From Phycisphaerae bacterium (GTDB lineage: Bacteria; Planctomycetota; Phycisphaerae; UBA1845; UTPLA1): DNA of 7,062 nt. The stretch lies in the NCBI GenBank assembly GCA_016935885.1, contig JAFGQA010000139.1, positions 1-7,062 of the forward strand, given 5' to 3'. Within the stretch, counting starts at the first letter, position 1, and every line of letters starts with the position of its first letter. Shown in pieces: positions 1,202-7,014 of the stretch. The notes under the pieces were generated by a model that had not been told where the DNA came from, made no database searches, and was given only the letters and a program-made list of their open reading frames with translations. The position numbers and the translations under genes are program-made.

Positions 1202-1213
1202 GGGTGATCACCC
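1202..1213. promoter_or_regulatory. Perfect 12-bp palindrome containing GATC
   Basis: GGGTGATCACCC is a perfect palindrome covering the stop codon of the small nuclease gene and the start of the 71-nt gap before the DNA-binding protein gene. It could be an operator for that protein, and it contains GATC, the site recognised by DpnII-family systems. A perfect 12-bp palindrome can occur by chance in coding DNA, so this is weak evidence of function. Confidence 0.25.
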
Positions 1214-1621
1214 GAACACCTCTGCGGCGAGGACCGGCTTCCACTGGTGTCCGACGAGCCGGCACAGGTCGGGCTTCTTTCCCCGCCGCCACTCGGCGAG
1301 AACAACGGCCTTGGCACGGTGGTGCCGGGCGACCTGCTTGAGGCGCAGGACGTCCAGTGGTGTGGGTCGGGACGCAGTTCCACCCTTGACCTGGATGAGA
1401 ATGATATCGAAGAGGTCTCCGCGCTTCGTGCCGCTGGAGGGAAGGCGGTGGTCCTTCCGGACAGCAAGGAGGTCGACGATGCCGCGCGACTCGGCCCTGT
1501 GTTCGCCGAGGAAGTCAACCACGTTCCATCTCGCGCCTCTCCGGCGGCTGTAGGTGACGAGCCATTTCGTCATCGTCCGCGCCCGCCGAGCCGTGTACAG
1601 GGCTTTCTTGCCCGGGTTCAT
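1208..1621 (-). CDS. Small PD-(D/E)XK-fold nuclease-like protein
   Basis: A 137-residue protein from the ATG at 1621. The middle part reads RGIVDLLAVRKDH (D50) and, after a loop, FDIILIQVKGG (Q77-V78-K79): an acidic residue ending one strand and a QxK in the next, the active-site pattern of many PD-(D/E)XK nucleases with Gln replacing the usual acid. The following helix (RPTPLDVLRLKQVARHH) and strand (AKAVVLAEW) suit the same fold, as in archaeal Holliday-junction-resolvase-like enzymes, though size and context suggest a restriction accessory. The chosen start makes an ATGA overlap with the DUF4268 gene stop, so translation is probably coupled. An ATG at 1648 in the same frame would give nine more residues and a longer overlap; one at 1573 would remove sixteen residues. 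No named family is recognised. Confidence 0.75.
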   Translation of the reverse strand: MNPGKKALYTARRARTMTKWLVTYSRRRGARWNVVDFLGEHRAESRGIVDLLAVRKDHRLPSSGTKRGDLFDIILIQVKGGTASRPTPLDVLRLKQVARHHRAKAVVLAEWRRGKKPDLCRLVGHQWKPVLAAEVFG

Positions 1622-2553
1622 CCCCGGAGCTGCTCGACGGTCGCCCAAGTCCTCTCTATCAGGGTTCTCATGGCCTCCACTGCCTCGGAGACGGAGTCCA
1701 AGGAAGGACGGGCATCATTGTAGGGCAACACGTACCGGGCGTGTGCCCACCCCTTCCCCCACTTCTTGGCCTCGAACTCCCAAGGAACACTAGCGCCGAT
1801 TTCATTAGACAGCCTCTTCAGCGTCGTGAGCCAGCGGAAGTTCTCCGCATCGTCGTCGCTCTCGAAGTGGAGCGCCACATCCACCTGCTTGGGTTTCCTG
1901 CGCACCTGCCACTCATAGTGGACGTCGCCGTCGCCGATGGGAACCTGCAGGTAGTTGTCGGCGTGGCGTGCCGTGGCCTGAAACCGTCGCCCACGCACCA
2001 CCAGGTCTAGCGCATTGAACTGCTCAGTGACCGCCTGCCAGTACTCCGCGTAGGGCGACTTCGACGCGGGCCTCACCGACCGCGTCCAGTTGTTGGGCTT
2101 GGACACAACGTTGAACTTGGGAGCGACCGGCGACTTGCCGATACGCCAAAGCTCGACCTCAAGTCCGAAGAACGCTATCTGCTCATCAGTGTGTTCGTTC
2201 AACCAGTCGAGTGCGGCCCGATGCTGGTCAATGAACTTCCTTGCTACCCAGATGATGGATACAGCCTCCAGCCCTGCTGCATAGGTGAGTATCTGGCCTA
2301 GGTGGTTGTGGTCGGTTGGCTCAAGCTGGTTCTCAATCAGAACCGTGCTGCTGCTTGCCACGTCGCGGCAGACGATGTCGGCGCGGAACTGGCCGACCCC
2401 CTGTTCCTGCCCCACGAGCACGAGATCCATGCCGAGCGTCTCCCCAAGCAGCTTGAGATTCTCGTCCTGCGCCAGCCAAGGCGTGAAGTCTCCCGCCTCG
2501 TTCTTCCACCCGGTTCGCAGGTCGACCTTCTCCAGACGTCCAAGATTGGCCAT
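1618..2553 (-). CDS. DUF4268 protein with PD-(D/E)XK-like N-terminus
   Basis: A 311-residue protein. The N-terminal half has a nuclease-like core: residues 55-60 (QFRADI, D59), then VLIENQLEPTDHNHLGQILT (residues 71-90), which is a conserved opening in DUF4268 proteins, with E74-N75-Q76 where a classical enzyme has (D/E)xK. A helix-rich segment (HRAALDWLNEHT) and FFGLEVELWRIG follow. The C-terminal part, about residues 165-305, fits the DUF4268 domain. Proteins of this family are common near restriction systems; a biochemical role is not firmly known to me. It starts 3 nt after the Mrr-like gene stop with GGAG about six bases before the ATG, and its stop overlaps the next gene by four bases, so it belongs to a tight operon. 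Replacement of the catalytic Lys by Gln leaves open whether it cuts DNA or only binds it. Confidence 0.85.
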   Translation of the reverse strand: MANLGRLEKVDLRTGWKNEAGDFTPWLAQDENLKLLGETLGMDLVLVGQEQGVGQFRADIVCRDVASSSTVLIENQLEPTDHNHLGQILTYAAGLEAVSIIWVARKFIDQHRAALDWLNEHTDEQIAFFGLEVELWRIGKSPVAPKFNVVSKPNNWTRSVRPASKSPYAEYWQAVTEQFNALDLVVRGRRFQATARHADNYLQVPIGDGDVHYEWQVRRKPKQVDVALHFESDDDAENFRWLTTLKRLSNEIGASVPWEFEAKKWGKGWAHARYVLPYNDARPSLDSVSEAVEAMRTLIERTWATVEQLRG

Positions 2554-2556
2554 TGC

Positions 2557-3561
2557 CTACTCCGAAGCCGGAACCCAGACCTTGCGGAGCGGTATCAGGG
2601 CCTTGTAGTCTGAATCGAGCCTGTCGTAGTACTCGGTGAGGAAGCCGACCAACTCCTCTGCATCCACCAGCGTAACGCGGCCGCCCTTCTCTGCTTCGCG
2701 CCTGGCCTCGGTAGAGAAACCCCCGGTAGACACGAATAGGCCCTTCTCGCCCTGGTTCAGGGTTCCAACTAGGTTCCGCACATCCGGCCCGCCCGCAGAT
2801 GACTGCCTGTGCTTTATCTGCACCTTGATTCGCGGGCTCTCAAAGCCCAAAGCGTCCGGATGGGCTATTACATCAACTCCGTGGTCCGGGCCGGGTGCCG
2901 AAACCCGCGTCCGGTACCCCATTGCCTCCAGCAAGCCGGCAACTAGCTCCTGGAGGTCGTAGGGGTCGATCTTCGACACCATGTCGCCGATCAGTTCGTC
3001 GGCCTTGCCCCTCACCTCTTCTAAGAACGGTGTGGCAGGCTCATCAGGCGGCTCGGAGATACCGGGCTCGAGCTTGCCCGTCCCGCCCTGCTTCATCAAC
3101 TTGAGCAACTCGTCGGCGTGAGGGTCGAGCAACAGGACCGTCGTCGCCCCACCCGAACTGTTCTTCAACGCCTGGCTCATCTCGTCGCGCGAGAACTCGC
3201 CGAGCCACTTGACTTTCCGCCCGTGGGAAATCGTCGGCCCAAGCACGTCCTTCTCGTAGAAGTAGTCGCCCGCAACACCGAAGAGGACCGTTCGTGCGCT
3301 GCGGTCGGGCGTGAGTATCCAATCGCCGGGACTGATGACGTGGACGACGCGAAAGAGTTGGCCCACGGCGTTCGCCACCTTGTTCTCCGAGGCTCCCGGC
3401 CGCAGCTCGCGGTATCTACGCTTCATTTCCTCCTTGTCGGTCACGCCCGACAGATCCCCGTCGAGCACGAACCCGACAGCCACCATCTTCTTCTCTCGGG
3501 CAGCATCTATCCAGTCCTGTCCCTTTGGAACCCTCACGACCCAGAACCTTGGCTCACTCAT
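2557..3561 (-). CDS. Mrr-type restriction endonuclease with N-terminal putative base-reader domain
   Basis: A 334-residue two-domain protein. Residues 1-155 (FWVVRVPKGQDWIDAA, AVGFVLDGDLSG, VGQLFRVVHVISPGDWILTP, VLFGVAGDYFY) match the N-terminal domain common to a large group of Mrr-like enzymes and resemble PUA/EVE-type modules that bind modified bases; that fold assignment is inference. A proline-rich linker follows (165-178). The Mrr catalytic domain occupies about 198-315: DPYDLQELVAGLLEAMGY, PGPDHGVDVIA (D230), IKVQIKHR (Q248-I-K250), and LFVSTGGFSTEAR, the typical strand-loop after the active site. Mrr-type enzymes are type IV restriction endonucleases that cut methylated DNA. The start at 3561 is supported by a strong ribosome site. 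It follows the glycosylase-like gene by 16 nt and precedes the DUF4268 gene by 3 nt. Confidence 0.88.
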   Translation of the reverse strand: MSEPRFWVVRVPKGQDWIDAAREKKMVAVGFVLDGDLSGVTDKEEMKRRYRELRPGASENKVANAVGQLFRVVHVISPGDWILTPDRSARTVLFGVAGDYFYEKDVLGPTISHGRKVKWLGEFSRDEMSQALKNSSGGATTVLLLDPHADELLKLMKQGGTGKLEPGISEPPDEPATPFLEEVRGKADELIGDMVSKIDPYDLQELVAGLLEAMGYRTRVSAPGPDHGVDVIAHPDALGFESPRIKVQIKHRQSSAGGPDVRNLVGTLNQGEKGLFVSTGGFSTEARREAEKGGRVTLVDAEELVGFLTEYYDRLDSDYKALIPLRKVWVPASE

Positions 3562-3566
3562 CCATA

Positions 3567-3573
3567 CCTCCTT
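3567..3573 (-). promoter_or_regulatory. Strong Shine-Dalgarno site of the Mrr-type gene
   Basis: On the minus strand AAGGAGG lies five bases before the ATG at 3561, a near-perfect match to the anti-Shine-Dalgarno. It fixes this start and contrasts with the heads of the two modules (4450 and 6667), which have no such site. Confidence 0.85.
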
Positions 3574-3577
3574 GCCG

Positions 3578-4450
3578 TCACTGCAAACCTCCGTGAGAGG
3601 GACGAATCACCGCACAGAGCCTGCTGCGCCGGAGCGGACATGCGCGGTTGGTGCACTTCTCGGTCGATCGGCAGGACGAGAATCCGCTTCGCACGTAGCC
3701 GACTGTCGAAGACTGACCGCCGAAGGTCAGCAGGTAGGCATCCATCAAGGGGGGACGGATGCCGCTCTTCAACCCGTACCGCTGCACCCGCTCCACAAGA
3801 GCGCGTTGATTGCCCGCCCCGTAGGGCTTGGGAATCGCGCCGACCACATAACCAACCCGCATCGCCACCACGTCGGGCTTGATGCAGTCGTAGCGCATGT
3901 CCTCCATGAGGAAATGAAGAAGCGTCGGCCAGTTGCCTAGGTTGGGCATCTCGCGCCGCTCCATGTCGGTCCGCAGCGATGCAATGGACGACCAGAAGAC
4001 CGTCACGTCTTCCTCGGACTCAATCCGGGGCGGAATGCTGAACTGCGCCAAGTATGCCCCGAAGTCGCCGAACTCCTTCCCGATTTGCCTGATGGCCCGC
4101 GCGCTCCAGATGATGCTGGCGACCTTTTTCTTGAAGCGAATCGGCTTCAGAACCTCCCAGTACTGATCCAATACTCGGTCCGGGTCCAGCCGCGCGACCT
4201 GCCTCAGGTCGAAACCCCGAAAAGCCCCCAACCAACCATCTGATTCGAAGAAACCTTCGAGCCGGTCAGCGCGGGTGGCTTGGTAAGCGACCTTGCAGGC
4301 CAACTGGCCTAGAAACGCATTGTCATCCCAGGAGGTCAGGCTTCTTGGCGACTGCGAGTCAATCCACTGCCTTAACGAATCGAAATCCGCCTCGCGGTGG
4401 CCGTCCACATACCTGGTGATGCTGTCGAACGCCCGGAACACGCGGCTCAT
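3578..4450 (-). CDS. HhH-GPD/TAG-like DNA glycosylase homologue with C-terminal cysteine cluster
   Basis: A 290-residue protein resembling DNA glycosylases of the helix-hairpin-helix superfamily. Residues 73-137 (WLGAFRGFDLRQVARLDPDR, then IRFKKKVASIIWSARAIRQI and FGDFGAYLAQF) parallel the 3-methyladenine glycosylase I region in which AFxxFDxxxVA is followed by Ix..xKIxAIIxNARA and FxxYxWSF. Residues 171-204 (LGNWPTLLHFLMEDM, DCIKPDVVAMRVGYVVG) fit the hairpin and helix bearing the catalytic Asp; D193 is the candidate. No Lys sits at the bifunctional-lyase position, so a monofunctional glycosylase is expected if active. Near the end, C260, C266, C271 and C279 (SCRSTEKCTNRACPLRRSRL, then C) recall the iron-sulphur loop of EndoIII/MutY but with unusual spacing. 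The ATG has no ribosome site; a promoter lies immediately upstream. It heads the operon with the Mrr-type gene. Substrate is unknown: repair of alkylation, or attack on phage modified bases. Confidence 0.7.
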   Translation of the reverse strand: MSRVFRAFDSITRYVDGHREADFDSLRQWIDSQSPRSLTSWDDNAFLGQLACKVAYQATRADRLEGFFESDGWLGAFRGFDLRQVARLDPDRVLDQYWEVLKPIRFKKKVASIIWSARAIRQIGKEFGDFGAYLAQFSIPPRIESEEDVTVFWSSIASLRTDMERREMPNLGNWPTLLHFLMEDMRYDCIKPDVVAMRVGYVVGAIPKPYGAGNQRALVERVQRYGLKSGIRPPLMDAYLLTFGGQSSTVGYVRSGFSSCRSTEKCTNRACPLRRSRLCAVIRPSHGGLQ

Positions 4451-4456
4451 GCGGGC

Positions 4457-4484
4457 AGGATATTGCAGCCGGTCAGGGTGTCAA
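4457..4484 (-). promoter_or_regulatory. Promoter of the glycosylase-like/Mrr module, leaderless
   Basis: On the minus strand TTGACA (4479-4484) is followed by a 16-bp spacer and TATCCT (4457-4462). Only six bases (GCCCGC) separate this -10 box from the ATG at 4450, so transcription should start at or next to the A of the start codon. The lack of any Shine-Dalgarno before the ATG agrees with leaderless translation. It lies in the 49-nt gap after the restriction endonuclease gene and would separate expression of this module from the restriction-modification genes. Confidence 0.65.
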
Positions 4485-4499
4485 GCGGGGCGGGATGTG

Positions 4500-5648
4500 C
4501 TATCGAAATCGGTCCAGATTCTCAGCAAAGCTGTTGAGATTGAACACGGCTCTGAACTGCTCCTGAAGTTCGGCAAACCGCTTCATCCCGTCAACGCAGA
4601 GCCAGTAGTTGCCGTCCGTTATCCAGTAGAACTCCAGTTCCGGCAGTTTCTTACGGATATCCCTATCCAACTGGACATATTCGCCCTGGTTGATCCCTAT
4701 CTTGGTGCCAGACGTGGTGTAGAAGTTGACCTCGAACAGGTACCTCGGCCTGCGTCCTTGCAGAATGACGACATCCAGCTTCTTCGGCCTTGACGCACGT
4801 CCCTTCACTACGCCTTTGACGTACCTCTCCGTACAGAAGAGCGGACGATCTGACGGCAGTTTCACGTCGGACGGTACGCCCTTCTCCGAATCGAGAGTCT
4901 TGATTCGGTGCTTGTTCAGGACGTCGTCAACATTCAGGAATCCGCCGTCAACTAGGGCTTGCCGAACACGGTCGTGCGCATACTTGCCATGCAGCCCCTT
5001 CGAGTCCCGTGGCACCCGCTTGTTCGCCAAGAACGTGCGCACGTCCATCCAATTCAGCACTGTGTTCAGCCGTAGTGCTGTAAGGATGTAGTTGGCCACT
5101 CTTATCGGGACGTCGCTGAACTCGGGACGTGCCATCCTGCGTTCCAGAACACCCACTTCTTTCGTGACGCAGCTAACGTATTTCGCGACGGCGATCTTGA
5201 AGTAGGCCAGTGCACTGGGCCGGCCAAGCCTCATGGCTAGATCCAGCGTATCTGCGGAGGTAGGTTCGGCATCCGCTACGTCAGCAAAGAGCTTCGCGAA
5301 GTCCGGGTCATGTTTGAGGTTCAGCACCAAGTACTCAAATAGGGCCTCCACACGCCGCGAGTTAAGTTTGACGGTATCGAACGCGAAGTGGATGACCTGT
5401 ACGTTTGTGAACCGCTGCAACTGGAACATTGCCTCGAATACCTCGAAGCACCTGGGATATCTCCGAACGTAGTCGGAGAGGTCCTCCACGCCCCAGTTGC
5501 GCCGCTGAGTTAGTGCCGCAACCTCCTTCTCCACCTCCCGGAATGGGAAACCGACTTCGCGGAACTCCTCCTCGGTGAGTTCTAAGAAGGAGATTCTGCT
5601 GGCAAACTCCTCGTAGGCTGCATCAAGCCTGCCACGCGCGCTCTTCAT
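4500..5648 (-). CDS. DpnII-family-like type II restriction endonuclease
   Basis: A 382-residue protein whose C-terminal third is close to the DpnII/MboI endonuclease pattern: KKLDVVILQGRRPRYLFEVN (residues 289-308) followed by FYTTSGTKIGINQGEYVQLD and FYWITDGNYWL. In that family the D...(E)VNFY..GG(S/T)K stretch carries the active site; here D292, E306 and K316 are the candidates. DpnII-type enzymes cut unmethylated GATC, but target specificity here is inferred from family only. Residues 1-200 are mostly helical, with a DpnII-like central part (around NWMDVRTFLANK and GLHGKYAHDRVRQALVD, probably a DNA-contacting region). At 382 residues it is longer than the roughly 290 of DpnII. Its ATG overlaps the methyltransferase stop (ATGA), with GGAAG nine bases upstream, so the two are translated together. 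The stop is TAG at 4500-4502. Confidence 0.85.
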   Translation of the reverse strand: MKSARGRLDAAYEEFASRISFLELTEEEFREVGFPFREVEKEVAALTQRRNWGVEDLSDYVRRYPRCFEVFEAMFQLQRFTNVQVIHFAFDTVKLNSRRVEALFEYLVLNLKHDPDFAKLFADVADAEPTSADTLDLAMRLGRPSALAYFKIAVAKYVSCVTKEVGVLERRMARPEFSDVPIRVANYILTALRLNTVLNWMDVRTFLANKRVPRDSKGLHGKYAHDRVRQALVDGGFLNVDDVLNKHRIKTLDSEKGVPSDVKLPSDRPLFCTERYVKGVVKGRASRPKKLDVVILQGRRPRYLFEVNFYTTSGTKIGINQGEYVQLDRDIRKKLPELEFYWITDGNYWLCVDGMKRFAELQEQFRAVFNLNSFAENLDRFR

Positions 5649-6667
5649 TTCGGAATCTTCCTGCCAATCGAGTGCCTCTCAGACGTGTTCAGTCCAATCG
5701 TTAGCTGCTTCGGGGCATCTATCTCATCTACTAACCGCCGTACAGCTTGTCTCACGTACCCACCCTCCAGGTCTATTCCTATGACACGTCGCCCAGTTCG
5801 GAGAGCCGCCACGGCCGTGGTGCCGGCGCCGATGAACGGATCTAGGACCCACCCGCCAGTGTCCGTGCTGGCGAGGATTGCGCGTTCCACCAAGGCTACG
5901 GGCTTCTGCGTCGGATGCTTGCCGTGCCGCTTCTCTGCCGCAGACGGAGGCATCTCCTCCCAGACATCCACAGGGCTGTCATGCCTAGTAGGCCACACCG
6001 TCTTCATCTGTCGATTACCTGCACGAAGCTTCATCTCTCTGTAGTCGAAGTAGTGCTTGCTCTTCCTGTTCTTTGCGGCCCAGATGATCGTCTCCGTCGC
6101 GTGCGTGAAGTAGCGGCAGGACAGGTTCGGCGGAGGGTTGGGCTTAACCCAGGTGATGTCGTTCAACAGCTTGAAGCCGAGCTGCTGCATCGCGAACCCA
6201 ACCGAGTGAATGACGTGGGCGGTGCCCGACACCCAGATCGTGCCGTTCGGCTTTAAGACGCGTTGGCAGCGGTCCAGCCATGCGCGGTTGAACTCATGGT
6301 TCTCCTCCGGGCCCTTGCTTTTGTCCCAGTCACCCTTGTCTACGCAGACCATCCGGCCCGCATGACAGGAGATACCACCGTTGCTGAGGAAGTAGGGCGG
6401 GTCGGCGAAGATCATGTCGAACACGCCCTCCTTCCAACGTTCGGCAACGCGATCCATCCAGGTCAGGCAGTTGGCCTGGTAGAGCCAAACCCCGTGGCCC
6501 GGGTCAGACCAGGCGAGCTTGACCTCTTGCTCAATCTCCTTGGGCTTCCCGCGCTTCCTCACCGCATCGCCCGCGCCTACCATGATGGACTCCGGTGCCA
6601 TACTGATGTCGAACGGGTTCTCAGGAGAAACGGGCATGGCCGGCTGGCTGGTGCGCTTCTTACCCAT
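5645..6667 (-). CDS. Beta-class DNA adenine methyltransferase, DpnA/M2.DpnII-like
   Basis: A 340-residue methyltransferase that transfers a methyl group from S-adenosylmethionine to DNA, protecting host sites from the adjacent endonuclease. Motif IV is IFADPPYFLSNGGIS (residues 86-100, DPPY 89-92), then MVCVDKGDWDKSKG, RVLKPNGTIWVSGTAH, ITWVKPNPPPNLSCRYFTHA (171-190), TETIIWAAKN, GKHPTQKP (249-256) and motif I LDPFIGAGTT (275-284). Motif order IV then I is the beta class, and the stretch from DPPYFLSNGG through NLSCRYFTH(A/S)TET is characteristic of DpnA-type enzymes. N6-adenine methylation of GATC is expected by homology, not shown. The first 60 residues are an extension relative to DpnA. 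The start MGKKRT is chosen because a -10 box lies eight bases upstream; the in-frame ATG at 6709 would fall upstream of the promoter. It overlaps the endonuclease start by four bases. Confidence 0.9.
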   Translation of the reverse strand: MGKKRTSQPAMPVSPENPFDISMAPESIMVGAGDAVRKRGKPKEIEQEVKLAWSDPGHGVWLYQANCLTWMDRVAERWKEGVFDMIFADPPYFLSNGGISCHAGRMVCVDKGDWDKSKGPEENHEFNRAWLDRCQRVLKPNGTIWVSGTAHVIHSVGFAMQQLGFKLLNDITWVKPNPPPNLSCRYFTHATETIIWAAKNRKSKHYFDYREMKLRAGNRQMKTVWPTRHDSPVDVWEEMPPSAAEKRHGKHPTQKPVALVERAILASTDTGGWVLDPFIGAGTTAVAALRTGRRVIGIDLEGGYVRQAVRRLVDEIDAPKQLTIGLNTSERHSIGRKIPK

Positions 6668-6675
6668 CGCCCGCC

Positions 6676-6703
6676 AGCATATCGGCCAATGCAGAGACGT
6701 CAA
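6676..6703 (-). promoter_or_regulatory. Promoter of the restriction-modification module, near-leaderless
   Basis: On the minus strand TTGACG (6698-6703), a 16-bp spacer and TATGCT (6676-6681) are followed by eight bases (GGCGGGCG) and the ATG at 6667. The expected transcription start falls within one or two bases of the start codon. The layout matches the promoter at 4457-4484 in -35 sequence, spacer length and distance to ATG, so the two modules may be recognised by the same sigma factor. GGCGGG just before the ATG is too close to serve as a standard ribosome site. Confidence 0.6.
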
Positions 6704-6890
6704 GCACAACAGAACTGGGTGGGTCCAAGGATTCGTGGGTTCAAGGGGTCCAGGGAAGACGAGGGCGAGCCATACGAGATTCTAGATTTGAGATTGGTGA
6801 TTCCAGAGGACTTGGGAGTCTACGGCATACGGCCGACAGCATACGGCCGGAGCGTGGACAAGCCAGACGGACGGGGAACGCGCAGCCGGC

Positions 6891-6928
6891 GAAGTCAGAA
6901 GGCAGAAGTCAGAACTGTGAAGTCTGAG
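6891..6928. repeat. Three-copy tandem repeat with 14-nt period
   Basis: GAAGTCAGAA occurs at 6891-6900 and 6905-6914, and the variant GAAGTCTGAG at 6919-6928; the starts are exactly 14 nt apart. The spacers (GGCA and CTGT) differ. It is a small decayed tandem repeat within the word-repeat spacer upstream of the methyltransferase promoter. Confidence 0.7.
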
Positions 6929-7014
6929 GGACAAGTAGCCGACAGCCAACAGCATACGGCTGACAGCAGGATGCCCTGACGCGAGTTGGTGAAGGGAGTG
7001 GATTTTCGACTCAT

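Follow-up and report, generated by a model that had tools for sequence, protein, structure and literature searches.

The window analysed here, a stretch of 7,062 nucleotides (nt) from a Phycisphaerae bacterium (contig JAFGQA010000139.1, assembly GCA_016935885.1), carries a restriction-modification (RM) pair and, directly after it, four genes for a DNA glycosylase homologue, an Mrr-type endonuclease, a DUF4268 protein and a small protein. Our favoured explanation, which we hold tentatively, is that this is a defence island made of an RM operon and a second operon headed by a rare, RM-linked helical glycosylase that acts on modified invader DNA. The gene content, the operon structure, the modelled fold of the glycosylase, its invariant residues and its RM linkage at both readable loci are results of computation. 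The function proposed for the glycosylase goes beyond them, and it is weighed below against repair and against other modes of restriction.

The glycosylase family

The glycosylase of the window belongs to a rare family. Thirteen members were found. The protein searches reached relatives via shared short words, and one of them scored the 7,999 candidates with most words in common. In our sample of 147 WOR-3 genomes, many of them fragmented (some neighbours may be hidden, and an absence is not proof), a full-length member occurs in a single genome, SKW181 (G001). Another 25 of these genomes gave partial matches only, at 49.4 bits or less; in 16 of the 25 the frame has 194-218 codons, the size to be expected for ordinary Tag (DNA-3-methyladenine glycosylase I), and in the others 102-812 codons. 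In contrast, a helix-hairpin-helix (HhH) glycosylase of the HhH-GPD type is present in 56 of 60 genomes. With a full-length member in one of 147 genomes, the glycosylase is not a housekeeping gene, and the initial annotation is supported on this point.

Among solved structures, sequence similarity reaches significance for Tag only. The family profile matches it at an E-value of 7.7e-9 over profile positions 39-183, in the N-terminal and middle region. The window protein scores 32.2 bits against PF03352 (curated cut-off 25), and 12 of the 13 members match PF03352 at an E-value of 0.01 or better, while the cut-off of the NCBIfam tag model TIGR00624 is missed by a wide distance (11.7 vs 232.5 bits). 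Several features set the family apart from Tag (PF03352). It has an extra C-terminal part with four cysteines, present in 11 of the 13 members and spaced 5-4-7 in all 11, and a KPD...MR motif that is invariant in the family. The catalytic residue of Tag is Glu38; depending on the alignment used, the column aligned with it holds glutamate in none of the 11 rows with letters, and in 6 of the 11 a glutamate stands one residue earlier.

The AlphaFold model of the glycosylase is confident and has an Endonuclease III-like helical HhH glycosylase fold over its full length, with helices only and no strand of three or more residues. Sequence-profile comparison with Endonuclease III stayed below significance, so the relation to this enzyme rests on the structure model. 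For the Endonuclease III profile, E. coli Nth was combined with those 27 of 30 loci (L116-L145) in whose frame the canonical motifs for cysteine and Asp are present, and the other three were left out. PF00730 was matched at an E-value of 0.01 or better by none of the 13 family members. D193 and R198, which form the D....R motif with the catalytic Asp of Endonuclease III and the other HhH-GPD Fe-S glycosylases, are found in all 13, and the register of D193 with Nth D138 comes from an hhalign alignment whose score is not significant (E-value 0.56). When compared with D. radiodurans EndoIII-1 (4unf), the family differs in its cysteines, which have the 5-4-7 spacing in the 11 members with four instead of the C-x6-C-x2-C-x5-C cluster, and none of the 13 members has lysine at the column of the lyase residue Lys120. 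Since the lyase lysine is missing, the enzyme probably only removes bases, without a lyase step.

Beyond the protein collection, a scan of genome contigs returned a single locus, that of SKW181 (L001). No relatives of the glycosylase were present in the scans of viral contigs or among phage records, and the only plasmid relatives were in three Vibrio records, closely related to one another and with 25-29% identity to the glycosylase. The annotated Vibrio relatives stop before the cysteines (two of the three records aligned), and in one Vibrio record the match to family member P0032 continues beyond the annotated protein end. At L002 (10524-12756), a Vibrio plasmid locus with the distant relative, a weak PD-T4-7-like gene stands two genes further upstream.

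Linkage to restriction-modification genes

The glycosylase gene adjoins an RM pair at both core-family loci whose context is readable, the window and L001. The order at L001, on one strand, is GIY-YIG/RAMA protein, Tsp45I-family restriction endonuclease (REase), N6_N4 methyltransferase (MTase), glycosylase. The GIY-YIG and RAMA domain matches are just below their cut-offs and the match to the PDC-S14 model is weak or partial. The Tsp45I-type REase is of another family than the DpnII-like REase of the window, and the two MTases are distant from each other (36% over 80 residues) within the N6_N4_Mtase family to which both belong. A further candidate modification-dependent nuclease accompanies the RM pair at each locus, the GIY-YIG/RAMA protein (PDC-S14) at L001 and the Mrr protein (PDC-S02) in the window. 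In SKW181, neither of the models used for the Mrr and DUF4268 proteins (PDC-S02 and PDC-S11) has a match. At the two readable loci, the recurrent partner of the glycosylase is RM and not the Mrr and DUF4268 nucleases.

In SKW181, imperfect direct repeats of about 85 nt flank the cassette (6570-6658 and 11421-11508, 80-91% identical by segment), and this repeat sequence occurs at two places only in the whole genome. Nobusato et al., cited in PMC3874152, reportedly described, in 2000, RM-gene insertion with long target duplication, and the arrangement at L001 resembles it. We infer that the glycosylase and the RM pair entered SKW181 together, and the glycosylase family is apparently mobile. With about 1,700 genes assumed for the 1.8 Mb of SKW181, which hold three N6_N4 MTase loci, we estimate a chance of roughly 0.3% for a glycosylase gene to fall next to an MTase gene. 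A gene near the L001 cassette is partly duplicated (11047-11320 and 12330-12783). Long bracketing direct repeats of the L001 kind are absent from the window, with nothing above 27 nt.

Relatives of the window RM enzymes were examined at five MTase loci and at four opened REase loci, out of six places above 150 bits. The nine stretches read contain no glycosylase, no Mrr and no DUF4268. At two or more of the five MTase-relative loci (L047 and L048), the adjoining REase matches the PADLOC model PDLC03548, as the window REase does, and relatives of the window REase adjoin other MTases in WOR-3 genomes. We rejected the glycosylase as an obligatory partner of the window REase or MTase, as relatives of both occur without it.

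Gene layout and transcription

The RM pair, the four genes after it and the two promoters, all on the minus strand, are as follows.

5645..6667, minus strand: type II DNA methyltransferase, gene 1 of the RM operon (PF01555 N6_N4_Mtase, 207 bits)
4500..5648, minus strand: type II restriction endonuclease with a DpnII-like C-terminal part (PF04556, 53 bits)
3578..4450, minus strand: glycosylase homologue, Tag-like / Endonuclease III-like, four C-terminal cysteines, predicted to be monofunctional (PF03352, 32.2 bits)
2557..3561, minus strand: Mrr-type (type IV-like) restriction endonuclease (Mrr_cat, 93.5 bits; PADLOC PDC-S02, 316 bits)
1618..2553, minus strand: DUF4268 protein (Pfam, 31.9 bits vs cut-off 27; PADLOC PDC-S11, 317 bits)
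1208..1621, minus strand: small protein, 137 amino acids from ATG 1621 (no family; possible PD-(D/E)XK by motif only)
6676..6703, minus strand: putative leaderless promoter (TTGACG-16-TATGCT), RM operon, eight bases before the MTase ATG
4457..4484, minus strand: putative leaderless promoter (TTGACA-16-TATCCT), four-gene operon, glycosylase ATG six bases downstream

The genes form two operons, the RM pair and then glycosylase homologue, Mrr, DUF4268 and small protein. The guanine-cytosine (GC) content at third codon positions is 0.71-0.82 in the six genes, giving them the appearance of real coding sequence. Overall GC is 60.8% for the window and 55.6-63.6% in loci from WOR-3 genomes G107-G121. 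The MTase frame extends over 5645-6709, and we favour ATG 6667 as its start because of the position of the leaderless promoter. The MTase has a DPPY motif, which we take to mean that it probably carries out N6-adenine methylation. The REase and MTase genes share 4 nt.

In proposing a four-gene defence unit, the initial annotation had described four minus-strand genes with junctions of 16, 3 and -4 nt, headed by their own promoter and placed directly downstream of the RM pair. Re-measurement returned the same junctions, and the promoter (4484-4457) and the RM pair (4500-6667) are where that description placed them. The frame of the small protein has an alternative start at TTG 1648; the ATGA overlap (-4) with the DUF4268 gene holds from ATG 1621. 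The defence setting is borne out as well, with two of the four genes matching PADLOC defence-candidate families and the RM pair adjacent.

With six bases between the -10 box and the glycosylase ATG, a leaderless mRNA is predicted, and the MTase gene is arranged alike, with eight bases. A general sigma-70-like scan of the window gave two promoter-like sites vs 1.6 expected, which is not significant by itself. A narrower pattern with the start codon included, written after the sites had been seen, found both; two matches occurred in none of 500 Markov shuffles and at least one in 1.6%. The same pattern matched 14 times in 15 other WOR-3 loci (146,479 bp), one of which (L053, contributing one match) had been chosen for its promoter match, vs 0.55 expected, and 7 of the 14 matches open at least 80 codons. 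The 49 bp that span the glycosylase promoter (4446-4494) have a 92% match in WOR-3 genome G116, where they precede another gene, GmrSD-like by eye. It is as if one promoter type served many accessory genes in WOR-3 genomes. Near-identical leaderless promoter blocks stand before different frames in G116 (L053 1468-1516) and in G107 (L094, several sites).

The Mrr, DUF4268 and small proteins

The initial annotation had assigned nuclease folds to the three proteins encoded after the glycosylase, and these assignments fared unequally. The Mrr domain is firm: Mrr_cat scores 93.5 bits vs a cut-off of 21, the D..[QE]xK motif is present, and D230 and K250 are invariant in six aligned sequences. When profiles were compared with the Protein Data Bank (PDB), the catalytic part matched MspJI (1.1e-4) and AspBHI (0.076), and the N-terminal part matched antibody chains only, at E-values of 0.08 or above. 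That the N-terminal domain is an EVE/PUA-like reader is a guess.

For the DUF4268 protein, the structure model offers a lead, namely that the N-terminal half is possibly an EndoMS/NucS-like PD-(D/E)XK nuclease domain. The model is of low confidence (predicted local distance difference test, pLDDT, 66; two sequences), and a Foldseek search with it gave no match at 0.001 or better, the top matches being of unrelated kinds. The small protein has its PD-(D/E)XK assignment from motif reading only. It has no family in Pfam, PADLOC or PHROGs, with one NCBIfam match at an E-value of 0.17. A homologue with 45% identity occurs on four plasmids, all Variovorax, and at the one of these four loci that was opened its gene stands apart from glycosylase, Mrr and DUF4268. 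It had no match in the 147 WOR-3 genomes, in a search without a positive control that shows little.

Both the Mrr and the DUF4268 protein match PADLOC candidates (PDC-S02 and PDC-S11) over most of their length; in PADLOC these are two separate candidate families, whereas here they are adjacent in one operon. Among the 147 WOR-3 genomes, PDC-S02 matched 13, with three near-full-length places, and PDC-S11 matched 12, with seven. The two genes are adjacent once in this sample (one of the three near-full-length Mrr places), in G114, where 3 nt separate the frames, in an island that also holds IetS and, by eye, a type I R gene. On a haloarchaeal plasmid, DUF4268, a NucS-domain gene and Mrr follow one another, with BrxL and PglZ as neighbours. 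Among the plasmid matches listed, 30 of 59 Mrr records and 30 of 63 DUF4268 records, at least one record (Halomontanus) is common to both by eye. The four genes were not found together in any collection searched, an outcome that the initial annotation had named as counting against its proposal, and only the Mrr-DUF4268 adjacency recurs. The four-gene set does not look like a conserved system. The interpretation given in the initial annotation is partly supported overall, and its claim of one four-gene system is not supported.

DUF4268 genes were also seen in other settings. In G115 (L052 5776-7598), one overlaps a gene that reads by eye as an HNH nuclease with an Mrr-like N-terminal domain, and this gene has no PADLOC match. 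A viral contig from IMG/VR (L010 2661-8942) carries a DUF4268 gene with 44% identity in an island that also has, by eye, methyltransferase-like, TIR-like and HNH genes. In one WOR-3 genome the DUF4268 gene is broken by stop codons (G065:C84:12165-13083).

Proposed mechanism and alternative explanations

If the window is a defence island of the favoured kind, the glycosylase would flip out a non-canonical base in invading DNA that escapes restriction, and Asp193 may drive base excision without a lyase step. The resulting abasic sites would damage DNA that the RM pair could not cut because the invader has modified bases. The Mrr and DUF4268 proteins would act in parallel as modification-dependent nucleases, rather than as subunits of one machine. 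A more specific proposal, in which we place less confidence, sees in the family the first defence glycosylase with the helical fold of Tag and Endonuclease III. The enzyme would be monofunctional, would move together with RM cassettes of the adenine type and would remove a modified base from phages that evade the RM system concerned. One mobile cassette could then cover both unmodified DNA, by restriction, and modified DNA, by excision. If this is true, a second, unrelated glycosylase fold is tied to mobile restriction cassettes, and immunity has drawn on base excision on more than one occasion. Direct tests of which base is removed would then have a candidate in a small protein suited to expression.

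Two observations weigh against the linkage to RM. The distant Vibrio plasmid relatives are not beside an RM pair. The context of the glycosylase is readable at two core-family loci only, and one of these is the window itself. As to joint entry into SKW181, the divergence of the repeats at L001, and further repeats on its right side, leave room for other histories.

Base excision as anti-phage defence has been demonstrated for Brig1 (PMC11078745) and Brig3 (PMC13160076, a preprint), which belong to the uracil-DNA-glycosylase (UDG) superfamily. Common to them and to the window is a homologue of DNA glycosylases encoded within a defence island. The UDG superfamily has an alpha/beta fold, in contrast to the helices-only model obtained here, and homology to Brig1 was rejected on this difference of fold. 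In the available portion of the DefensePredictor paper (PMC13092281), a figure of predictions names UDG and aGPT-Pplase, and no Tag-like protein was found there. Among the open-licence papers listed in our searches, none dealt with a Tag or HhH glycosylase in RM-based defence, and we know of no description of this fold for defence.

One RM-linked repair glycosylase is known to us, Mig.MthI of Methanobacterium thermoautotrophicum, a thymine-DNA glycosylase that acts on deaminated 5-methylcytosine (m5C; T:G) and whose partner MTase makes m5C. The window and L001 share with it a glycosylase gene next to an RM pair. By this precedent, the glycosylase would protect the host from lesions of its own RM methylation, such as hypoxanthine from 6-methyladenine or stray alkylated bases. 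We regard this repair role as unlikely, though it is the main rival. The linked MTases are N6_N4 enzymes and not m5C enzymes, so there is no T:G problem to solve; relatives of the same MTase and REase do without a glycosylase; and the rest of the window operon consists of nuclease-like genes. Identity is 12% in the structural alignment with Mig.MthI (PDB entry 1kea). Should the repair role prove true, it would extend the Mig.MthI case to adenine-methylating systems, a testable surprise. A plainer possibility, that an ordinary Tag-like alkylation-repair gene lies in the island by chance and without a special defence link, agrees with the significant profile match to Tag structures and with the PF03352 matches of nearly all members. 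We consider it rather improbable given the near-absence of the full-length family from WOR-3 genomes, the RM linkage at both readable loci, the alignment-dependent lack of glutamate at the catalytic column, the additional cysteine part and the large shortfall against TIGR00624.

The four proteins could instead form one cooperating system in which the glycosylase marks DNA and three nucleases cut it. The tight single operon with its own promoter and the repeated Mrr-DUF4268 adjacency in G114 speak for such a system. It is nevertheless improbable, as no other locus was seen with the glycosylase and Mrr or DUF4268, SKW181 matches neither nuclease model, and the small protein stands apart at the Variovorax locus opened and is unmatched, in the uncontrolled search, in the WOR-3 sample. 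It is very improbable that the glycosylase is a restriction glycosylase like R.PabI, removing an ordinary base from recognition sequences that the neighbouring MTase has not methylated. Its position beside an MTase gene would suit this role, and restriction enzymes that work by base excision are known (PMC10273834). By the same source, PabI adopts the HALFPIPE fold, as opposed to the helical glycosylase fold here; a separate REase is present at both loci, and the partner MTases differ between them. An R.PabI-like restriction glycosylase was rejected for the other fold and the separate REase.

Other features of the window

Window DNA has matches in 14 of the 147 WOR-3 genomes, consisting of separate genes and intergenic repeats. 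DNA identity is 81% for the MTase gene in G114, 74% for the DUF4268 gene in G119 and 73% for a HicB-like gene in G107, and the last 87 bp of the window have an 84% match in G116. Judged by these matches and by GC content, a WOR-3 bacterium of the G107-G121 group is the most likely source; the assembly itself is catalogued under Phycisphaerae. The HicB-like antitoxin gene lies at 9-221 on the plus strand (46 bits), with relatives in G107 and G121, and is followed at about 222-440 on the same strand by what appears by eye to be a decayed HicA partner. A small helix-turn-helix protein is encoded at 738-1136 on the minus strand; its Myb/GerE matches are weak and below cut-off, and it has a 61% identical homologue in WOR-3 genome G118. 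Short intergenic repeats at 6721-6971 recur in several WOR-3 genomes, among them G106, G107, G110, G115, G118, G132 and G140.

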